Assembly (NCBI GenBank): GCA_902489515.1
Contig: CABUAL010000007.1
Coordinates: 1-16,966, forward strand
DNA length: 16,966 nucleotides
Source of the DNA: an uncultured Collinsella sp.
GTDB taxonomy: Bacteria > Actinomycetota > Coriobacteriia > Coriobacteriales > Coriobacteriaceae
Direction of reading: 5' to 3'
Below the pieces are notes generated by a model. It worked only from the letters and a program-made list of their open reading frames with translations. It made no database searches and was not told where the DNA came from. Shown here in pieces: positions 4,140 to 16,358 of this stretch; position 1 is the stretch's first letter; each line of letters starts with the position of its first letter. The translations under genes and the position numbers were made by a program.

Positions 4140-4169
4140 GCACTCGCCTGGATTGCCCATTACAGTCTG

Positions 4170-4390
4170 AAATAGGCCATCGATAAATTTCGATGGCGAG
4201 CATTCGGCGCATTGCCTACGATACGGGCAAGCCCCGAGGGGCCGCCGATCGGGCGCCTCCGGATGGCCGTCTGCCCCTGCCCCGTAGAGGGCCCGGGGGG
4301 CCATCTCACCGGGGGCGCTCGCCGCTCCGGACGACTGATAGGAAACTGCCGGGCGCAAGCGCCACGGCCAGGTAATGTGGGTGTCGCGGG
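4170..4390 (+). ncRNA. Predicted IS110 bridge RNA (limits approximate)
   Basis: IS110 recombinases use a bridge RNA, usually encoded upstream of the transposase, with a 5' stem-loop, a target-binding loop and a donor-binding loop. All three can be drawn here in that order. The 5' stem-loop is GCCATCGA/TCGATGGC (4176-4197). The target-like loop is closed by GATGGCC/GGCCATC (4262-4268, 4299-4305). The donor-like loop is closed by CGAC/GTCG (4332-4335, 4383-4386) with an apical hairpin at 4346-4371. On the 5' side of the donor loop ATAGGAA (4338-4344) equals the right end (5688-5694). On the 3' side GTAATG (4372-4377) is the complement of CATTAC at the left end (4158-4163). Fold and limits were made by eye. 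Confidence 0.72.
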
Positions 4391-4398
4391 GAGGGGTT

Positions 4399-4418
4399 CC
4401 GATCGGCCTACCGATTGG
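4399..4418 (+). promoter_or_regulatory. Hairpin hiding the transposase Shine-Dalgarno site
   Basis: CCGATCGG (4399-4406) pairs with CCGATTGG (4411-4418), including one G-U pair, around a CCTA loop. The transposase ribosome site GGAGG is 4417-4421, so its first two bases are in the stem. Such structures in insertion sequences commonly keep transposase translation low. It lies just after the predicted bridge RNA. Confidence 0.6.
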
Positions 4419-4429
4419 AGGATACCACC

Positions 4430-5587
4430 GTGGCACCAATTAGAATGCCGGAAGCCGTCATCGGGCTCGATGTCGGGAAATCGTCCCACTGGGCATGCGT
4501 CGCGACTCGAGATGGCGAGGTGCTGTTGAGCACCCCCGTCGCGAACAGGGAGGACGACCTGGACTCGCTGTTCGGCCGCTTCCCCGATGCGCTCGTGGTC
4601 GTCGACCAGTCGCGCAACATAGGCGCCCTCGCGCTCGCCCGCGCCAGGGCGGCCGGGATGTCGGCGGCGTACCTGCCGGGACTCGCGGCGCACGGGGCCG
4701 CCAGGCTCTTCGCCGGCGACGCCAAGACCGACGAGCGAGACGCGATGGTCATCGCGAAGACGGCGCTTGGCATCCCCGACGCGCTCCTGCCGGTCGGAGA
4801 CCCGGGTCCGACGATTGCGGCGGCGAGGGCGCTGGCCGCCCAGAGGAACTTTCTGACCTGCGAGAACACTAGGAATAAGAACCGGCTGCGCAGCATCCTG
4901 CTGGAATCGTGCCCCGCCTTCGAGACACTGGTCGACCTGTCCGACGGGCCCCAGCTGAGGCTCATGGCATCCCTCGGCGGGGCCTGGTCGGTAGCCGACG
5001 CCGGGCCCCGCAGGGCGGCGGCGCTCACGCGTGGGGCGGCGCGCGGTAAGATCGAGGCCCTCGTCCGCTCGACAACCTCCTCGACAAGGCCGGATGCGTC
5101 GGTCGTCGCCGCCGAGGACCGGGCGGTGAAACTGCTCGCGCGCAGGATATCCGAGAACTCGGCGGAGATCGAGGCGATCACGGCGGAGATCTCCGCCCTG
5201 CTCGAGGGCGACGATACCTACCGATGCCTCCTGACGGTGCCGGGCATCGGGCCCAAAACCGCTTCCGAGCTTGCGATCTCCATCGACATCGAAGACTTCC
5301 CCAGTCACGACAGGCTCGCGTCGTACTGCGGCCTGGCGCCGCGCAACCGCCAATCGGGAACCTCGATCTCCTCGGTGACGGCATCGCGCCAAGGCAACAA
5401 GAGGCTGAAGAACCTGCTCATATTCTCATGTAACTGCCTTACCCGGACAGAGGGGAGATGGGGCGACTACTACACCAGGTGCCGGGAGCGGGGCATGTCG
5501 CACGGCAAGGCGCTCAAGGCGCTGGCGCGAAAGAGACTGAAGGTCATCTACGCGGTCATGCGAGACAGGGTGCCTTACGCAGCCTAG
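4430..5587 (+). CDS. IS110 family transposase (RuvC-like domain plus Tnp_20 domain)
   Basis: A 385-residue recombinase. The N-terminal RuvC-like DEDD domain shows Asp14 (VIGLDVGK), Asp59 (LVVVDQS), and Asp101 and Asp104 (KTDERDA). The second position is Asp where IS621-type enzymes have Glu. The C-terminal Tnp_20 domain (about 263-345) has the helix-hairpin-helix-like VPGIGPKTASEL and the RQSGTS motif, where Ser309 is the probable nucleophile. Between them (about 225-262) is a predicted helical, coiled-coil-like stretch. The start is the GTG at 4430, 8 nt after GGAGG; an in-frame TTG at 4415 overlaps that ribosome site and is rejected. It should act on DNA with the bridge RNA encoded just upstream. 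The frame is intact, so the element may be active. Confidence 0.93.
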   Translation: MAPIRMPEAVIGLDVGKSSHWACVATRDGEVLLSTPVANREDDLDSLFGRFPDALVVVDQSRNIGALALARARAAGMSAAYLPGLAAHGAARLFAGDAKTDERDAMVIAKTALGIPDALLPVGDPGPTIAAARALAAQRNFLTCENTRNKNRLRSILLESCPAFETLVDLSDGPQLRLMASLGGAWSVADAGPRRAAALTRGAARGKIEALVRSTTSSTRPDASVVAAEDRAVKLLARRISENSAEIEAITAEISALLEGDDTYRCLLTVPGIGPKTASELAISIDIEDFPSHDRLASYCGLAPRNRQSGTSISSVTASRQGNKRLKNLLIFSCNCLTRTEGRWGDYYTRCRERGMSHGKALKALARKRLKVIYAVMRDRVPYAA

Positions 5588-5676
5588 CCGAAACGCACCG
5601 AGCAGACTGAAGCCCACCGGCCTAATGGCTTGGCGTCAGCATGCCGCGATTCGGTCGCACGGAGAGCATTTCCCAG
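5588..5676 (+). other. 3' non-coding end of the IS110 element
   Basis: No gene is visible. The segment can fold: CCGAA (5589-5593) faces TTCGG (5650-5654), with CGC/GCG continuing the stem after an A/A mismatch, and AAGCC/GGCTT forms a short inner stem. It may end the transposase transcript or serve as right-end structure. Confidence 0.4.
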
Positions 5677-5682
5677 TTGACA
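5677..5682 (+). promoter_or_regulatory. Consensus -35 box at the IS right end, facing outward
   Basis: TTGACA lies 12 bp before the predicted core CA at 5695-5696. In an excised circle, joining right end to left end would put TACAGT (4161-4166) 15 nt downstream of it, giving a promoter reading into the bridge RNA. This junction-promoter arrangement is known for IS110 elements. In the integrated state no -10 box is seen at the right distance in the C/T-rich flank. Confidence 0.55.
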
Positions 5683-5760
5683 AAACTATAGGAACACCCC
5701 CCTTTTGGGCGCGAGTTCTGGAAAGCACGAATCCAAGACCGAGCAGCTTGGGAAGTTCCA

Positions 5761-6908: not shown

Positions 6909-9032
6909 CTAGCACTGCTTTATGAGATCGAGCACCGCAGGAATGTCATCGGCGTTCCGAAGCGCAACGTAAGTGGGTAAGCCCGGGCCAAATCCGCCCT
7001 GTGCGCGTTTGTCCTGACACATGTCCTCTGGATCAATTAGGTCGTCCACGCTCTTTGCCAGGCCAACGGCGATCCAACCACCGTTGCTGGTCCTGCCTTC
7101 TAACACGGCATGCAGTTTTCGCTTGCCCGACCTGAAGCCTACATAGTACTTAGCTATGTAGGACTCCCACGAAGGGTTACCACTCAGAACGGACTCGCGC
7201 ACCTCATCGAAAAGCTTCTGGTTGACCCCACCTTCGGCAAAGGTGGGGTGATTCTCCTGCAGAGTCCAGATAGGAGCCTCATCAGACTCCCCGCGAGAAG
7301 GACGGTACTTGTCGACGACGTCTGCCGGAAGGTCGGGATATTTCCATATCTCACACGCCTCTTTCGCCAGCTCGTCCGCGCGCTGTCCAATCTCTTCCTC
7401 ACCCCATTTTTCACGCGAGGCGATCGACTTGTTCAGGTAGAGCGGACTGCACTTAAATCCGACGTCAGGCAGATTGAGCTTGTCCGAGAACGACCGGTTT
7501 GAGTACTCCTGGTTGTAGCCCGTCAGCGTAAGATTTCCCAAGTTGTTGCACAGCCTGTCGTGGACGTCTTCCCAGTTCTCACCAAGCGATTCCTTCCAGC
7601 CGTGCTCATCATCGATCGTCTGGGGCATGATGTGCTCGATCTGGTAATCGTCGGCTGAGATGGACTCCTTCGGGTGGTGCCAGTTCTCCATGCGTTCCAG
7701 GTAATAGCGCTTTTTAGAGAAGCGGTTGTAGCAGTCACGCGTCTTAAACTCCTCGACAAAATGCTCGTCTGTCGGAAAGTATGCGGTCATACCGCTGCTG
7801 TGGATAAGGAGCATCGCCGTAACGTACTCCTCGATATCGTCCTGCTGCTCGAGATTGCGATACATGCCGGCAAAGAAATTATTTAGGCCCGTGGTAAGTC
7901 TGCCGCAAACCGCTCGCCTGAACAGAAACGACTCGATAGTCTCGCAGATACGTAAAAACGCATTGCGGTCTAGTCCATTCCCCTCGTAAACCGAATAAAG
8001 CAACATTAAGAGGGGCCTTATCTGCTTCACATCGAGGCTTACGATTCTGCCGAACACTCGGCGCAGTCCGTCGTCCTTCTCCTTACCAAGGAACAGACTG
8101 GCGTATCTATGTGCATACCCTCGCAGCTCCTTAAGCAGGCCCTCGGTGTCACCATCGTAGTCGTCGGCGAAATAGCGCTTAAACTCGTAGTAGGCCTCGT
8201 TCTCCTTCGGCATCCTATTGGGAACTTTAAGCCACAGCCAGTACCAGATAAATGCATTGAACTCGTCCTCGCCGCCTTTTCCGAACAAGCACTCGAGTGG
8301 ATGCCAATAACCCTCATAAAGATTGGTCTGTTCGTCGTTGGGAAGCGACATTAGAACGTAGTTACGGATGAGGTCAATGGGCGTGAGCGGCTTGCCCTTG
8401 GAGTTCATGGACTCAAATATGAGCTGGGCATTATCAACGCCAGCGGTGAGCTTAGTGTCGATGACCTGCACGCGGTTTAGCCCCGCCCAAAGCCTTGCAG
8501 GGTCGAATGATTTCCCGTGCATCTTTTCACGGAAGAACGCATGGTTTTCGACAATGCGATCCGATTTTTCATCTGGCACGGGAGCCCCAGACACGATGGA
8601 GAACAGCGTCTCTTTATCGTCCTGCGAGAGCACCAGCTTGTAGCGTGCCAGACCGTTGTAGTCGTCATCGTTAAAGAGGTAATTTTTCCTCAGCGCCGAG
8701 ATTTTGAGGTCGCCAAGGAAGCCAGCCTTGTCGGGGTTGCTCTCCAAATAGTCAGCCAAAGCTGCAATCATCAACGAAAACGTCGTCATGCGCTGCTGTC
8801 CGTCAATCAGAAGCACGCGCGAAATGCTCGTGGCAGAGCTCTCGGACTCGGGGATATAAAGCATTGACCCCACGAAGTGCGATACGCCATCACGACCCGC
8901 TCGCATGACGTCATCCCAAAGCACCTCGCACTCTTTTACACTCCACGAGTAAATACGCTGGTACACGGGAATGACGAACTGCATCTTCGCCACGCCCATA
9001 AGGTCGAGTAGATTTGCCTCGGTTGCTTTCAT
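6909..9032 (-). CDS. GmrSD-like DUF262/DUF1524 nuclease
   Basis: A 707-residue cytosolic protein. The N-terminal DUF262 domain shows IPVYQRIYSW (21-30), LLIDGQQRMTTF (74-85) with the DGQQR NTPase/nuclease signature, and FESMNSKGKPLTPIDLIRNY (206-225). The DUF1524 HNH-type nuclease domain shows IEHIMPQ (465-471), with His467 probably catalytic, and NLGNLTLTGYNQEYSN (497-512). The C-terminal ~110 residues resemble the DUF5655-type domain often fused to these proteins. The family includes GmrSD and BrxU, NTP-dependent nucleases that restrict modified phage DNA, so phage defence is the likely role; the target modification is unknown. The start is the ATG at 9032, 10 nt after GAGGAG. It appears to be a single-gene unit, 452 bp from the next upstream gene. 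All key motifs are present. Confidence 0.9.
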   Translation of the reverse strand: MKATEANLLDLMGVAKMQFVIPVYQRIYSWSVKECEVLWDDVMRAGRDGVSHFVGSMLYIPESESSATSISRVLLIDGQQRMTTFSLMIAALADYLESNPDKAGFLGDLKISALRKNYLFNDDDYNGLARYKLVLSQDDKETLFSIVSGAPVPDEKSDRIVENHAFFREKMHGKSFDPARLWAGLNRVQVIDTKLTAGVDNAQLIFESMNSKGKPLTPIDLIRNYVLMSLPNDEQTNLYEGYWHPLECLFGKGGEDEFNAFIWYWLWLKVPNRMPKENEAYYEFKRYFADDYDGDTEGLLKELRGYAHRYASLFLGKEKDDGLRRVFGRIVSLDVKQIRPLLMLLYSVYEGNGLDRNAFLRICETIESFLFRRAVCGRLTTGLNNFFAGMYRNLEQQDDIEEYVTAMLLIHSSGMTAYFPTDEHFVEEFKTRDCYNRFSKKRYYLERMENWHHPKESISADDYQIEHIMPQTIDDEHGWKESLGENWEDVHDRLCNNLGNLTLTGYNQEYSNRSFSDKLNLPDVGFKCSPLYLNKSIASREKWGEEEIGQRADELAKEACEIWKYPDLPADVVDKYRPSRGESDEAPIWTLQENHPTFAEGGVNQKLFDEVRESVLSGNPSWESYIAKYYVGFRSGKRKLHAVLEGRTSNGGWIAVGLAKSVDDLIDPEDMCQDKRAQGGFGPGLPTYVALRNADDIPAVLDLIKQC

Positions 9033-9484: not shown

Positions 9485-11848
9485 CTATTCGCCACCCGAT
9501 GCTGGCAAGCTGTTGAGCGGCTCGCTCTCACCGGCGGCACCAAGGCGCTTCTGCATCTTCTCGATCTGCTTAAGGGTCGAAGTCAAATACCCAAGACCCT
9601 TCTTCAACTGCTTAAGCAACCTGCCATTCCTGCGGTCCCCCTTTCCATTCTCCTTCTCGACATCCTCCTCAACACCAGCGATGCTGCGCTGCACGGCCTC
9701 GGCCGCCTTCTGCACCAAAATGGCTCCCTCATGCGGGCAGCGGTCAGTTGCCACATCAAGAAATGCGAGAAGCCTTGAGCATTCAACGAGCACGAACTGC
9801 GCATAGTCCTCCCCCATCGACGCCGCCAGGGCAACGCCGCTAGAACCCAAAAGGCCAAACGCAGCGCCGCCGCCAGCAATTAAAGCGGTGCCACCGGCCA
9901 TGCCCATGCCGCCGGCGGCCAAGGCGCCGCCGCCAGCAGCAGCAAGACTCGCATTGACGAGCGCAGCCCCGTGAAGGCCGACAAACGAGCCTCCAAAGAT
10001 ACCGACAGCAATATCCGGAGCCAATGCCGCGGCCACTCCTCCTGTGCCCAGGGCCGCCGCCACGGCAATGGCGCCGCCTACCAAGACCTTTGGCAATGTA
10101 CCTGAGAGCTCACGGATATGCGCCCCGCATTGCTTCTCTAGGGAACGCACGGCGTCCAAATCAACCGCGTCTTGTCTCCTGGGAAATTCATCTTTAACCC
10201 AAGCCCCGCTCCCCTTCAAACCTTTGTATTCCTTCTTCTCTTCATCTCCTATCTGGAAATAGGGGCGAAACTCAACCAGCTCCTGAGCGATCAGCAAGGC
10301 GCGCACCTTGCCGCCTCGCTGCCGCGAAATAGCCTCAAGGGCTCCGTACGCATCTTCCTCGCTCAAAAAATAGCCGTCTGCATCAATGCCTAGGCCATCC
10401 GTGACCGAATCCTGCCACGCGCGGGCCCAGCTCCTCTTTTGCCCTTTGCGCACTTCGTTCTTCTCGTTCCCGCAGTCGTAGTTGATGGCGGCAAGCTTCA
10501 GCGAGAAGGCAATCCTCGTCGTCTCTCTATCTAGGCTATAAAAGTGGAATCCATCGAAGATATCCTGGCGGCGCCTGGCGCGCTCAGTCCAAGCCTCGGA
10601 CATTTCCTCCGCCATATAGCCCCAGTCGGCATGGAGTGCAAACGCAAGGCGTCCAACTCCAACGTAGTTTATTCGCAAGAAGAACTTCTGGGCGAACACG
10701 ACCTTGTTCCCCTCGCATTCGATACCCGCCCTGACCGCCGCCGTCGCCAGATTCGCCAGAACGAACGAAGTACTCGAAACCGTGACCATGCGAGTGAGGG
10801 CCCTGCTGTTGTAGGGCATGAAATGCGAAGCCTTGAGCTTGCGCAAGCCGGAGACATCACTCACTTCGCAACGTTCTAGCTCGGCCTTGAGCCTTGAAAG
10901 CATGTAGAGACAACGAACGATAACCTCGTTGGCCACGACTGCTGGCACCTGGCTTAAAGCTTGATCGAAAAGACCGACTTCCGTCCGAAGGTCGAAGCGA
11001 ATGGGCTTGCCGTCCTCGGTTTTGAACGCCGTTCCGTTAAACAGCTTTGAGATCCATTGCTGAATGCGAATATCCTTGCCCTTATAGGCAATCCGCATGT
11101 CTTGAAAAACAGGCAGGGAGGAGAGCTCCTTTAGCAGGGACAGCACAACGCCGGGAATACCCGTCCCCTTACCGGGGTTTGAACTAGACCCCGCCATGTC
11201 GCTCACGAGATGCATTGCCCAGAACAGAGTGCCAAACGCGATCTTCTCTGGAACGTTCCTGCCTATAAGAGGGCGGTCAGGATCGAAGGCGGCGGCAGGC
11301 AGGTCAAAGGCGACAAACCGGCCGGCCGTATCGGTGCCATAGCCTTTGCACGTGAATTGCGAGAGGATCGAACACGCAAGGCCAACCAAGCTCGGGTGGT
11401 GCGAGAAATCCCGCAGATGATGTTGGAGCCCGCCGCCAAACTCGGCAGTCAGCTTGTCCGCGGCAAGAGGAAACCCTTTCTCTAGAAAGCGAATAGCGTC
11501 TTCTAGAGTTGCATCCGCCTTTGTCATACCCGCAGACTTGGCAATCGTAAGAACGAATTTGCCAACCTTCTCGTCGCCCCACTCTTTGGCACCCTCTAGG
11601 TTGAAGTCTTTCTGCCACAGGATATTCAACGCGCCCGTGAGGAGCCCGCTAACGGCTGCAAGTTCATAGTCGAGCTTCGTAGCCTTTTCAGCCCGAGGGT
11701 CAAAATCAAAGAGGACCTCCTCCCCATCGGGAGCGTCCTTAAAACCAACCAGCACGGCGCTACCGTTCAGCGGCACAGATGCAACTTTGGGCAGTTGAGG
11801 CATGGTGTAAACTATCTCGCCGCCACTAAAAACAAGTTCGTCTGCCAT
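9485..11848 (-). CDS. Uncharacterised 787-residue protein: His/Asp-rich domain plus Gly/Ala-rich membrane segment
   Basis: I recall similar hypothetical proteins in Actinomycetota and Firmicutes but know no assigned function. The most conserved-looking part has His143-His144, DFSHHPSLVGL (147-157), a YGTDTAGRF loop, and HLVSDMAGSS (213-222), then GTGIPG (228-233). Clustered His and Asp in this pattern could bind metal, as in HD-type or zinc phospholipase-like hydrolases; this is inference. Residues about 588-678 are a long hydrophobic stretch dense in Gly and Ala, resembling glycine-zipper membrane segments. The last 70 residues are charged and helical, possibly coiled coil. The start is the ATG at 11848, 8 nt after AGGAGG; a GTG at 11890 in frame is less likely. 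It is the last gene of a minus-strand operon with an exonuclease and a small broken gene. Confidence 0.85.
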   Translation of the reverse strand: MADELVFSGGEIVYTMPQLPKVASVPLNGSAVLVGFKDAPDGEEVLFDFDPRAEKATKLDYELAAVSGLLTGALNILWQKDFNLEGAKEWGDEKVGKFVLTIAKSAGMTKADATLEDAIRFLEKGFPLAADKLTAEFGGGLQHHLRDFSHHPSLVGLACSILSQFTCKGYGTDTAGRFVAFDLPAAAFDPDRPLIGRNVPEKIAFGTLFWAMHLVSDMAGSSSNPGKGTGIPGVVLSLLKELSSLPVFQDMRIAYKGKDIRIQQWISKLFNGTAFKTEDGKPIRFDLRTEVGLFDQALSQVPAVVANEVIVRCLYMLSRLKAELERCEVSDVSGLRKLKASHFMPYNSRALTRMVTVSSTSFVLANLATAAVRAGIECEGNKVVFAQKFFLRINYVGVGRLAFALHADWGYMAEEMSEAWTERARRRQDIFDGFHFYSLDRETTRIAFSLKLAAINYDCGNEKNEVRKGQKRSWARAWQDSVTDGLGIDADGYFLSEEDAYGALEAISRQRGGKVRALLIAQELVEFRPYFQIGDEEKKEYKGLKGSGAWVKDEFPRRQDAVDLDAVRSLEKQCGAHIRELSGTLPKVLVGGAIAVAAALGTGGVAAALAPDIAVGIFGGSFVGLHGAALVNASLAAAGGGALAAGGMGMAGGTALIAGGGAAFGLLGSSGVALAASMGEDYAQFVLVECSRLLAFLDVATDRCPHEGAILVQKAAEAVQRSIAGVEEDVEKENGKGDRRNGRLLKQLKKGLGYLTSTLKQIEKMQKRLGAAGESEPLNSLPASGGE

Positions 11849-11913
11849 ACCGGCTTCCTCCTGCAAACGCGTAAAACTAGATTGCTCCACGCCGCCAAAT
11901 CCCTCTCGTAGAA

Positions 11914-13414: not shown

Positions 13415-14710
13415 CTACGCCCCAAGTGCCGCCATGGGAATCACCGCCACGCCGTCGTCGCGTGTGTAGGCAATGCTCCCCTTTCCAACCACGACCGCCA
13501 AAAACGCCGGCGCGGCATTCTGGGCGGCAGGATTGGAGAGCACTTTCCTCTCCAGCGCCTTGAGATTTCTCGCTCCATCGTCTGCTTTCGCATCACTCAG
13601 CTTGACCTCGATGGCTCCCCAGCGCCCGTCGTGCTCAACGATCAGATCGACCTCAAGGCCCTTCTCATCTCGGAAATAATGGACACTGTTGTCGACACCG
13701 CCGTAGGTGGAAAGGAACACGCGCACGTCGCGCAGGACGAGATTCTCAAAGAGCATCCCCAGCGTTTGCATATCGCCAAGCAGCCGCTCAGGGGTAGCCC
13801 CCAGCAACGCCGCCGCAAGTGACGGGTCACAGAAGTAGCGCTTGGGGCGCACGCGAACGCGGGCCTTCGAGCGCATGGGCGGCTCCCATCCGCACAGGTC
13901 CTCGGTCAGCTTGAGCCTGTTGAAGAGGTCCAAGTACGCAGCGATGGTCCTCTCGTCGGGGCCCGCCTCACCGTACGAGGCGTCCTTTACGAGCGTCTTG
14001 TACGTGACAGCCTGGCTCTCGTTCATGGCAAGAGCTCGCAAAAGGCCGTGTGCAAGCTCGGGCGACATGCCCTCGTCCAGCACGTTGACGTCGAGCACCG
14101 AGTGCACGTACTGGCTTGCCGTCTCTCGCGCAAGATCTTCCGAAAGCCCAAGATTTGCAGGCCAACCGCCCCTGCAGCACCAGCGGGCGACGTCATCCAC
14201 CGTGCTCTCGCGACGCTGAGGGGCAAAATCCTCGCCCTTAAAGAGACTTGCCAGTGACACGAGCGGCTCGCCGTCGCCCGACTCACACAGGGCCATGGGG
14301 CGCATTGACAGACGGGCGATCCTACCCGTGCCGGAATGACGAACATGGCTGCGCTCCTCGCTTTTGAGCGCGGTCGAGCCCGTGAGCAAAAGTGTCCCCC
14401 GTTCGTTGCCGCTCGCGTCCACGAAACGCCGGGCGGCATCCCAAACCTCGGGCACCTCCTGCCATTCATCGACCAGGTGTGGCGCATCGCCGATGAGCGC
14501 CAGGCTTGGGTCGACCTCTGCCGCCGCACGCTGCGCAGGCTCATCGAGCCTGGAGACGCTCGCCGAGCGAGAGAGCGCCGTCCAGGTCTTGCCGCACCAT
14601 TTGGGGCCGTTGATCTCCACACAGCCAAACGCCCGCATAAGGGTGTCGAGGCGCTCCTCTATGAGCCGGGGCCTATATCCCTTTTGGGTCAATCTCTTTG
14701 GTGCATCCAT
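13415..14710 (-). CDS. AAA ATPase with DUF4143 domain
   Basis: A 431-residue protein of the AAA_14/DUF4143 family. Walker A is GPKWCGKT (35-42), Walker B LVDEWQEVP (79-87, Asp81 and Glu82), and sensor-like LLTGSTAL is at 108-115. The C-terminal DUF4143 part has FENLV (321-325) and a PD-(D/E)XK-like signature: Glu353 and Asp355 in GLEVDLIVEHDG, then Glu368 and Lys370 in GAIEVKLSD. A nuclease activity is therefore possible but not established for the family. The start is the ATG at 14710, with GAGGG about 9-10 nt upstream. Four 23-bp tandem repeats lie directly upstream and overlap the likely promoter, suggesting autoregulation. It lies downstream of a second ATPase of similar architecture. Physiological role unknown; often found near toxin-antitoxin and mobile regions. 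Confidence 0.88.
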   Translation of the reverse strand: MDAPKRLTQKGYRPRLIEERLDTLMRAFGCVEINGPKWCGKTWTALSRSASVSRLDEPAQRAAAEVDPSLALIGDAPHLVDEWQEVPEVWDAARRFVDASGNERGTLLLTGSTALKSEERSHVRHSGTGRIARLSMRPMALCESGDGEPLVSLASLFKGEDFAPQRRESTVDDVARWCCRGGWPANLGLSEDLARETASQYVHSVLDVNVLDEGMSPELAHGLLRALAMNESQAVTYKTLVKDASYGEAGPDERTIAAYLDLFNRLKLTEDLCGWEPPMRSKARVRVRPKRYFCDPSLAAALLGATPERLLGDMQTLGMLFENLVLRDVRVFLSTYGGVDNSVHYFRDEKGLEVDLIVEHDGRWGAIEVKLSDAKADDGARNLKALERKVLSNPAAQNAAPAFLAVVVGKGSIAYTRDDGVAVIPMAALGA

Positions 14711-14746
14711 AGACGGCCGTCCCTCTCTATCACGCGATATGCGAAA

Positions 14747-14844
14747 TTACGCCATTCTCAATGCTGATTTTACGCTACTTTCAATGTAGTTTTTACGCCA
14801 TGACAGATGTAGTTTTTACGCCATTTTCATTGAAGGTTTTACGC
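14747..14844. repeat. Four 23-bp tandem repeats plus a partial fifth
   Basis: Units start at 14747, 14770, 14793 and 14816, exactly 23 bp apart, with a truncated fifth at 14839-14844. Each begins TTACGC and most continue CATT..CA(A/T)TG with a T-rich end. They lie 37 bp upstream of the DUF4143 ATPase start. In the first unit TTGAGA (14756-14761, minus strand) could be a -35 box with TATCGC (14734-14739) 16 bp downstream. The iteron-like layout suggests several protein copies bound on one face over two turns per unit. Confidence 0.9.
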
Positions 14845-14895
14845 TTGGCATCCTTAGCGCGACCCATTCCGAGCATCACATCAGAGCGTGCTTGG

Positions 14896-16287
14896 TTATC
14901 TCCGCTCGCACATCTCGGCAAACGAAATCAGCTTGGCATCTCCCCTGCTCGCCGCAGCTTCCTGACATCCTTGCGTAAAGCCTCGCTTCGAGAAGATCGC
15001 ATAGCTTTTGTGCTGCCGCCTAAAGAGCTCGCTTCGATGCACGAGCTTTTGCAGCACGTCTTCGCCCACCGGTTCATTGCGCCATTTGCATTCCGCAAAC
15101 AGCGCAGTGCCCTCGCCATCGTCAACAATCAAGTCGATTTCTTCCTGCGTATGCGTGCGATTATCCGTCCCCCACCAGCGCCCAACGCTTGCCGGAACCA
15201 CATCAAGCTGGCCCGCCCGCGCGAGTTCGTACACGTATTGTCTGCATATAAGCTCAAAGACCGTACCCATGTAATCCGATACGTGCGGCTCAATGCGCTC
15301 ATACGCCATCTCGGCCATATCGTTTTGAATCAGCCCGATGTTCTGCGGAACAAACTTGTACCAGAACCTAAACATCTGATCGCTCAGCAGATACACGGCT
15401 CGCTTATTGCTCGTCTCGTTTAGGGGCAGCTCGCGCTCGACAATCCCAAGCGACGCCAGCTTATCCACATAGCTCTTTACGTTGCTCGCAGGGATTCCCG
15501 TAGAGCTCGCAATCTCCGAGATCTTCGAGCGCCCCTGGGCAATTGCTTGCACGATCGCATCATATTGCTCGGGATTGCGGCACTCCTGCAATAGCAGGTT
15601 ACTCGGCTCCTCAAAGAGATAGCCCGTAGGAGTTAGAAAAAGACGTTTGATGTTGTCCTTGAGCGGTGCGGCAGGATCGACTTTCTCGATATATGCAGGA
15701 ATGCCACCTGTCATGCCATAGCAAACTGCAGCGTCTTCGCGACCCATGCTCTGCCACAACCCGAGGGTCGTCGTAAAATCGAGCGGCATGATCTTAAACT
15801 GGGCCGTACGCCTACCGTATAGTGGGCTCTCGTAGCCCAACACCTGTTCCTCCATAAACGAAAGCGACGACCCGCACAGGATAAGCATAAGCTTGGTCTC
15901 TTTGTACAAGTGATCGATCTTGTCTTGCAGCAACGAGCTGATCTCGGGATTCGATTGGGCGAGATAAGGATACTCGTCGATCACGACAATCAAACGTTCC
16001 GTGCGAGCCATGGTAGCCAATGCATCGAACGCCTCGTCAAAACTACGAAACAACACGCCAGCAACACCAACGGAGCCCGCAAGTATCGCCTGGCTAAAGC
16101 CATGCAGGTTTGCCTCTGCATTGGTACGACGAGCTTGAAAGTAAATAGCCTTCTTGCCTTGGATAAACTCTGTGATAAGACGCGTTTTGCCCACGCGACG
16201 GCGGCCGTAAATCACAGGCATCTCAAAGGAGCCCGTGCCATACAGTCGATTGAGCTCGGACATTTCCGCCGTTCTTCCGATAAACAT
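14896..16287 (-). CDS. AAA ATPase of the ATPase_2/DUF234 family
   Basis: A 463-residue protein of the archaeal-type ATPase family. It begins MFIGRTAEMSELNRLYGTGS. Walker A is GRRRVGKT (28-35), Walker B LIVVIDEYPYL (99-109, Asp104 and Glu105) and sensor 1 LILCGSS (135-141). A winged-helix segment spans about 240-290 (KISEIASSTGIPASNVKSYV). The C-terminal DUF234 domain shows a PD-(D/E)XK-like pattern: Asp385 (EEIDLIVDD), Glu399 and Lys401 (FAECKW). The winged helix makes DNA binding credible. The start is the ATG at 16287, with AAGGAAGG 8 nt upstream. A perfect 56-bp palindrome ends 16 bp before the start codon. The next gene on the strand is another ATPase (DUF4143), after a 185-bp gap with its own repeats. 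Biological role unknown. Confidence 0.88.
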   Translation of the reverse strand: MFIGRTAEMSELNRLYGTGSFEMPVIYGRRRVGKTRLITEFIQGKKAIYFQARRTNAEANLHGFSQAILAGSVGVAGVLFRSFDEAFDALATMARTERLIVVIDEYPYLAQSNPEISSLLQDKIDHLYKETKLMLILCGSSLSFMEEQVLGYESPLYGRRTAQFKIMPLDFTTTLGLWQSMGREDAAVCYGMTGGIPAYIEKVDPAAPLKDNIKRLFLTPTGYLFEEPSNLLLQECRNPEQYDAIVQAIAQGRSKISEIASSTGIPASNVKSYVDKLASLGIVERELPLNETSNKRAVYLLSDQMFRFWYKFVPQNIGLIQNDMAEMAYERIEPHVSDYMGTVFELICRQYVYELARAGQLDVVPASVGRWWGTDNRTHTQEEIDLIVDDGEGTALFAECKWRNEPVGEDVLQKLVHRSELFRRQHKSYAIFSKRGFTQGCQEAAASRGDAKLISFAEMCERR

Positions 16288-16302: not shown

Positions 16303-16358
16303 TTACGTTATAGCTAGCTATATTATACCTTCCTATAATATAGCTAGCTATAACGTAA
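16303..16358. repeat. Perfect 56-bp palindrome (25-bp arms, 6-bp centre)
   Basis: Left arm 16303-16327 and right arm 16334-16358 are exact complements around CCTTCC. Each arm contains the self-complementary 14-mer TATAGCTAGCTATA (16309-16322 and 16339-16352), centres 30 bp apart. TATAAT occurs in both orientations next to the centre, so it may include promoter elements. The arm ends directly at the ribosome site of the DUF234 ATPase, so the mRNA leader would form a long hairpin if transcription starts upstream. Confidence 0.93.

Follow-up and report, generated by a model that had tools for sequence, protein, structure and literature searches.

A very likely bridge-RNA-guided IS110-group insertion sequence of Collinsella whose donor guides match its own ends

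Does the IS110-type insertion sequence in this Collinsella contig carry an RNA that addresses its own ends, and on which bases would donor and target be joined? The sequence-only reading of the window (the whole 16,966-nucleotide stretch analyzed here) had proposed an IS110 element with a self-consistent bridge RNA, both donor guides of which match the element's ends and put a CA dinucleotide at the junctions as the core. In our analysis the element, the guides, their sides and their coordinates stood, whereas the CA core did not. The element very likely belongs to the bridge-RNA transposons and, judging from its sequence and that of its relatives, in all likelihood moves as a circle by RNA-guided recombination, as an IS110-group element with a bridge RNA. 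The coordinates of its features are given in Table 1.

Table 1. Features of the window element and its right flank, in window coordinates.
Feature	Position	Strand	Remark
IS110-group insertion sequence	4158..5696	+	net insert 1539 bp, CATTACAG...GGAACA
Left end CATTAC (right donor)	4158..4163	+	paired by the right donor guide
TACAGT, proposed -10 box	4161..4166	+	reaches a 17-nt spacing to TTGACA only on circularization
Bridge RNA	4173..4395	+	putative transcribed extent, from the fold and the profile of relatives
Left target guide GTCTGCCCC	4269..4277	+	7 of 9 letters equal T1-9 of the window site; weak for C-runs
Right target guide GGGGGG	4295..4300	+	pairs with CCCCCC right of the element
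Window-only change CCATCTC	4301..4307	+	TGTTGCC in other copies; covers the supposed handshake position
Left donor guide ATAGGAA	4338..4344	+	identical to right end 5688-5694
Right donor guide GTAATG(TG)	4372..4379	+	complementary to (CA)CATTAC, the presumed circle junction
IS110 transposase (recombinase)	4430..5587	+	start GTG, 385 aa, internal stop absent
TTGACA, proposed -35 box in right end	5677..5682	+	
Left donor ATAGGAA in right end	5688..5694	+	matched by the left donor guide
Terminal CA of element, outside target	5695..5696	+	absent in the right ends of L016 and L174
Right target CCCCCC	5697..5702	+	flank right of the element

The transposase matched PF01548 (DEDD N-terminal domain, E 4.5e-32) and PF02371 (Transposase_20, E 1.5e-19), both over the curated cut-off. 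Noncoding DNA of 272 nt precedes its start codon and 109 nt follow its stop codon, and relatives are laid out similarly. Both domains, together with a long noncoding left end and a short right end, identify window 4158-5696 as an insertion sequence of the IS110 group. Among solved structures, only IS621 (8wt6, E 2.1e-11) and the IS110-group transposase of ISCro4 (PDB 9t56, E 4.5e-11 over residues 245-384) were related at E ≤0.001, the latter compared by the protein search match alone. The similarity to these two transposases lies mainly in residues 245-384; similarity to IS621 is significant mainly in the C-terminal part, where a serine-glycine motif aligns with that of IS621. We take the serine of this motif to be the catalytic serine. 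Of 396 genomes of the class that were searched at the protein level, 66 contained relatives at E ≤1e-40. Just before the transposase GGAGG ribosome site, and overlapping it, lies an inverted repeat (CCGATCGG/CCGATTGG, window 4399-4421); a sister family (family B, below) has a similar inverted repeat before its transposase in different letters. Because the repeat is kept while its letters differ, translation of the transposase may be controlled by structure.

Elsewhere in the window, 6912-9032 and 9488-11857 (-) hold a GmrSD-type restriction protein (PF03235, PF07510) beside a 790-codon frame that had no Pfam match; the two form a possible defense locus. Two adjoining AAA ATPase genes (DUF4143; ATPase_2 with DUF234) lie at 13418-16287 (-) and 16303-16358; immediately upstream of the second gene there is an AT-rich inverted repeat.

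The ends of the element were compared among its copies. Close copies in C. aerofaciens contigs were near-identical to the window element, and the nearest comparison genome, G001, which shares 50% of the window's sampled 31-letter words, contains ten nearly full-length copies at 93% identity. Both ends were parsed at 23 fetched loci, with end anchors tolerating ≤5 and ≤4 substitutions, and two further fetched loci had a left end only. The 23 loci represent 17 distinct sites with identical end sequences; at every one a C stands before ATTACAG and the terminus is ATAGGAACA. In a larger count of left ends (65, minus four that were mis-picked), C precedes ATTACAG in 61 of 61 distinct sites. The window's insertion site is empty in G001 and other Collinsella genomes, and 11 empty loci were aligned. 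Ten of these read CCCCTCCCC and the eleventh has an extra T, whereas the filled site predicts eight C; the one-base difference may reflect a T lost before or at insertion. More generally, filled C-run sites predict 7 to 10 C and the aligned empty sites have approximately 4 to 9, some of them interrupted; because run length varies, C-run sites cannot fix the boundary or the core to the base.

Family B is a sister IS110 family with a transposase approximately 62% identical to that of the window element and with the same terminal letters. Its insertion site was GAACGTC|CCCAAY in 13 of 13 parsed loci, and its flanks, joined minus one C, occur uninterrupted elsewhere at 100% (L121) and 99.5% (L122). 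For six of 11 queried family B sites an empty counterpart of ≥95% identity ran through the join without a gap, and four gave no full-length empty site. At the L068 site one of eight relatives aligned at ≥96% (L130) was without two letters at the join, and at the L070 site relatives were without 13 letters near it. From the family B empty sites the net insert is therefore CATTACAG...GGAACA, corresponding to window 4158-5696. The ends that had been proposed from the window alone were thus exact, family B and the 17 distinct sites being in agreement, and no copy with ends elsewhere turned up among those sites. Target duplication is absent in family B; in the C-run family the same holds only inexactly, the run length varying.

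Some ends and flanks are recorded here in their own right. The right ends of L016 and L174 read AACC and GGACCC instead of the usual GGAACA, the terminal CA being missing. To the right of the element in L070, the 13 bases CCCAATGACTATG occur twice, and once in the aligned empty sites. In L009/L043 a close copy abuts another IS110 element at the latter's right end (GAACACCC|ATTACAG), so that the two stand in tandem. Family B flanks (L014, L022, L057, and others) contain a REP-like palindrome, TAGTCATT...AAGAACGTCCCCAATGACTA, that is recurrent in Collinsella genomes.

We then considered the noncoding DNA ahead of the transposase. Its predicted fold (-124.6 kcal/mol) was more stable than that of shuffled sequences (-106.7 kcal/mol; z -3.57), and none of 200 shuffles did as well. 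In a consensus structure derived from 18 relatives, 11 of the 33 pairs have at least one sequence changed on both sides. A profile built from 18 bridge RNAs found the RNA in 28 of 30 fetched loci and, at 20 more distant loci, gave 10 clear matches, two weak ones and eight without a match. The stem and guides, rather than being unconserved, were conserved or co-varying among homologs. The window sequence folded alone pairs the target loop differently from its siblings, and the guide register was therefore not taken from that fold.

Within this RNA, the left donor guide is same-sense and the right one complementary to the element's own ends, each on the side required by the IS621 model, and all letters of ATAGGAA, GTAATG (4372-4377) and CATTAC lie exactly where the sequence-only reading had put them (Table 1). 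Could such matches have arisen by chance, the region being GC-rich and the ends freely chosen, with no guide RNA at all? They are short (7 and 6 letters) and were picked by eye, and an Rfam scan gave no family at gathering scores; but the ends are fixed independently by the copies and empty sites, and the match is kept while its partners change (guide/end ATAGAGA/ATAGAGA, ATGGGAA/ATGGGAA and ATAGGGA/ATAGGGA, beside the ATAGGAA of the window). Among 27 representatives (<90% protein identity), the left donor guide equals the element's own right-end heptamer in 24, against a shuffled mean of 8.7, and 0 of 100,000 shuffles reached 24. Unless the parsing was wrong, this count contradicts chance, which we regard as extremely improbable, and the donor matches exceed what shuffling gives.

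With redundant copies included, 68 of 71 left donor guides in the parsed loci match. The exceptions (guide/end) are L162 (CTAGGAA/ATAGGAA) and L174 (ATAGGAA/ATAGGAC), each with one mismatch, and L197 (ATGGAAA/ATAGAAA), with one G·T pair. The parser took one general guide/end pattern, so that elements with other patterns or a single end were dropped, among them L061 and L183, in which the right end was not found, and L171, which has a right end ATAGGGA and no recognizable left donor guide. Because the relatives are not independent, a protein tree of 26 of them was built, leaving out L167, which is without a left end. Seven label groups require six changes on this tree, the minimum possible; the signal is therefore carried by a handful of joint changes. 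By eye, more distant IS110 elements (approximately 31-38% identity) have ATAGGTTGA in both guide and right end (e.g., L186 and L187), and L189 and L193 have ATTGGTTGA in both. The right donor guide is nearly invariant among aligned rows, as is CATTAC. It forms a G·T pair in L048 and has a mismatch in L197, and in L061 CAATAC occurs with GCATTG, one position being compensatory and another mismatched. As a separate observation, L157 (in genome G163) lies, by sequence, in the bridge RNA gene of another copy, where it interrupts the right donor guide in inverted orientation; the CATTAC that flanks L157 on the right is complementary to the right donor guide of L157 itself.

These ends, guide matches, co-variation across relatives and targets are read directly from the sequences, and the following course of events would fit them. 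Conservative recombination would produce a circle in which GGAACA is joined to CATTACAG, and excision would thereby bring TTGACA to 17 nt from TACAGT. The proposed -35 box is spaced 14 nt from the last base in all 71 right ends that were parsed, a number that counts redundant copies, although the search pattern would have admitted 14-17 nt. It reads TTGACA in 70 and TTGACG in one; the right end of L048 has TTGGCA in its place. By analogy with IS621, the bridge RNA of which is made from a promoter formed by the joined right and left ends (as described in the accessible text of PMC11208160), the TTGACA-17-TACAGT spacing across the joined ends would make a promoter that turns on transcription of a bridge RNA from the left end. 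In the donor loop ATAGGAA copies the right end and so would pair with its bottom strand, and the partner of GTAATG(TG) would be (CA)CATTAC on the top strand. For the target loop the partner would be a run of approximately eight C, GGGGGG taking the six C right of the element, and the recombinase would join donor junction and target. Transcription, circle formation, strand exchange and present activity of the window copy are what we infer from this arrangement.

The base or bases common to donor and target are the part of the original proposal that failed. A CA core would give a circle GGAA-CA-TTACAG with the junction GGAACATTACAG; CA is present at both ends in all close copies among those listed, and the IS621 core is two bases long. 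Against this, CA is missing from the aligned empty sites at the position where the filled sites carry the insertion (CACCCC is read there in L115 and L118, divergent empty relatives of the L006 site), the family B net insert contains both CA pieces, and eight guide letters, GTAATGTG, complement CACATTAC of GGAACA|CATTACAG, two more than had first been counted. The targets (C-runs, CCCAAY and CGTCCC) likewise are without CA at the insertion point. By the family B empty sites donor and target have a single C in common; CA 4158-4159 and CA 5695-5696 are two separate pieces of the presumed circle, not one core, and a CA core is very improbable. A CC core with a two-base overlap (junction GGAACACCATTACAG) was also ruled out, the family B empty sites having four C and not three.

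A single C (junction GGAACACATTACAG) fits the site counts. All 61 distinct sites have C at the left junction and 60 have it at the right junction, where L067 has T. The donor continues with A, and the target continues with C at 58 sites, G at two and A at one (L157); T follows in L162 and L195, outside the 61-site count. Only one base is therefore common to donor and target, L157 excepted, and an identical two-base core as in IS621 was not found. The bases neighboring the common C differ between donor and target, and none was seen exchanged in the copies examined. Since the guides place the core at CC in the target and CA in the donor, cut positions or mismatch handling would, on a one-base core, have to differ from those of IS621. 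The reading that this Coriobacteriia clade recombines with a one-base core, in which donor ...GGAACA-C-ATTAC and target ...GTC-C-CCAATG would share one C, is a tentative one, to which we give somewhat less than an even chance; a two-base core that is mismatched and resolved with a bias may fit the sequences as well. In IS621 the core CT in donor and target is strongly preferred and not absolute, according to the accessible text of PMC11208160, and the missing two-base core is therefore counted here as a variant within the bridge-RNA kind.

The target guides were compared with the insertion sites, the register of the left guide being set from family B, in which GAACGTCCC equals the target at 9 of 9 letters. 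The right guides fit the six bases right of the element as GGGGGG/CCCCCC, as GTTGGG/CCCAAC or CCCAAT and, for the two distant elements L018 and L181, as GGGACG/CGTCCC. Over 21 representatives (excluding L058, L181, L020 and L048), 122 right-guide positions were paired against 115.6 on shuffling, and 121 of 50,000 shuffles were as high. Misfits occurred in L157 (CATTAC), L058 (CGTTAC, with a loop deletion) and L048 (CCCTAT), and partial fits in L196 (5 of 6) and L161, which needs two G·T pairs. For the left guide, family B gave a nine-letter match in 10 of 13 loci and an eight-letter match in three, and over the families 1,224 of 50,000 shuffles did as well. At 16 sites of the window's own family, positions 6-12 are all C and position 13 is C in 14, while letters 1-5 show little preference; only the C's being constant, the first five left-guide letters seem not to be required there. 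The right guide thus fits, and the left guide fits in full in family B and weakly in the window's own family.

The letters TG after the right target guide complement the element's terminal CA in 31 of 34 aligned rows. This count was made by eye, because the target parse was restricted to elements in which the right guide is followed by TG, or by the CC of the window itself, which biased its 64-to-1 count in favor of TG; a rough automatic recount (33 of 34) was too lenient. By analogy, this TG would be equivalent to the handshake guides described for IS621 in the accessible part of PMC11208158. The three other rows are the window itself (CC), L061 (TA) and L058 (deletion). In the window the change extends over seven letters: CCATCTC replaces the TGTTGCC found at the equivalent of 4301-4307 in 30 fetched loci (one of them without a left end), among which the left flanks distinguish 18 other copies. 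The sequence-only reading, right about the donor guides and ends, overlooked this alteration of the target loop. CCATCTC creates a perfect GATGGCC/GGCCATC pair with 4262-4268, and the change may be a palindrome-templated (template-switch) mutation or an assembly error.

The RNA of the window copy may therefore be impaired. The element would then be a bridge-RNA IS110 whose own RNA is damaged and which is immobile alone or moved by RNA from elsewhere, a reading for and against which we find the evidence evenly balanced. The replacement is peculiar to the window and absent from 18 other distinct copies, it removes the TG at the supposed handshake position, and it changes the predicted fold of the target loop; on the other hand, guides, ends and transposase frame are all intact, the predicted loop energy hardly shifts (-52.1 versus -51.0 kcal/mol), and a sequencing or assembly error would also explain the letters.

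Bridge RNAs of IS110 elements are already known, and the window element is a well-supported new one. As far as the accessible text of PMC11208160 describes IS621, the two are alike in having an IS110-type transposase, an RNA in the long left end, the order of 5' stem-loop, target loop and donor loop, a same-sense left guide and a complementary right guide, and a promoter from the joined right and left ends, here predicted. Unlike IS621 with its two-base CT core (PMC11208160), the window element has only one C common to donor and target, and its target is a C-run. Family B sits in a REP-like palindrome, and the accessible text of PMC11208160 likewise raises REP targeting for IS621, asking how often REP elements are targeted. 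The ISEc21/seekRNA IS110 elements, in the accessible text of PMC11187229, require the upstream noncoding region and form an abutted circle with a promoter, as would be predicted here; they are also alike in the absence of target duplication and in a relative naturally redirected by changed guide letters, so that natural retargeting of IS110 elements was already known; they differ in their ends and target, and that text covers target matches and not donor guides. A literature search for Collinsella with IS110 gave a single listed match, concerning gut microbiome composition, and among the titles listed in broader searches no study of these elements was named; IS110 is not treated in the accessible part of PMC13174815.

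These results show that, in the gut class Coriobacteriia, many elements carry a putative bridge RNA laid out like that of IS621. The relatives amount to natural experiments, in which the same ends occur with different target guides (C-runs and the REP-like palindrome), different ends occur with matching donor guides, and CGTCCC sites occur with matching guides in two distant elements; such natural variants test the guide rules without engineering. A one-base core is unusual and, if true, would make the window element a variant of the bridge-RNA system. In that case a matching dinucleotide would not be general, which would bear on the programmability of such recombinases.
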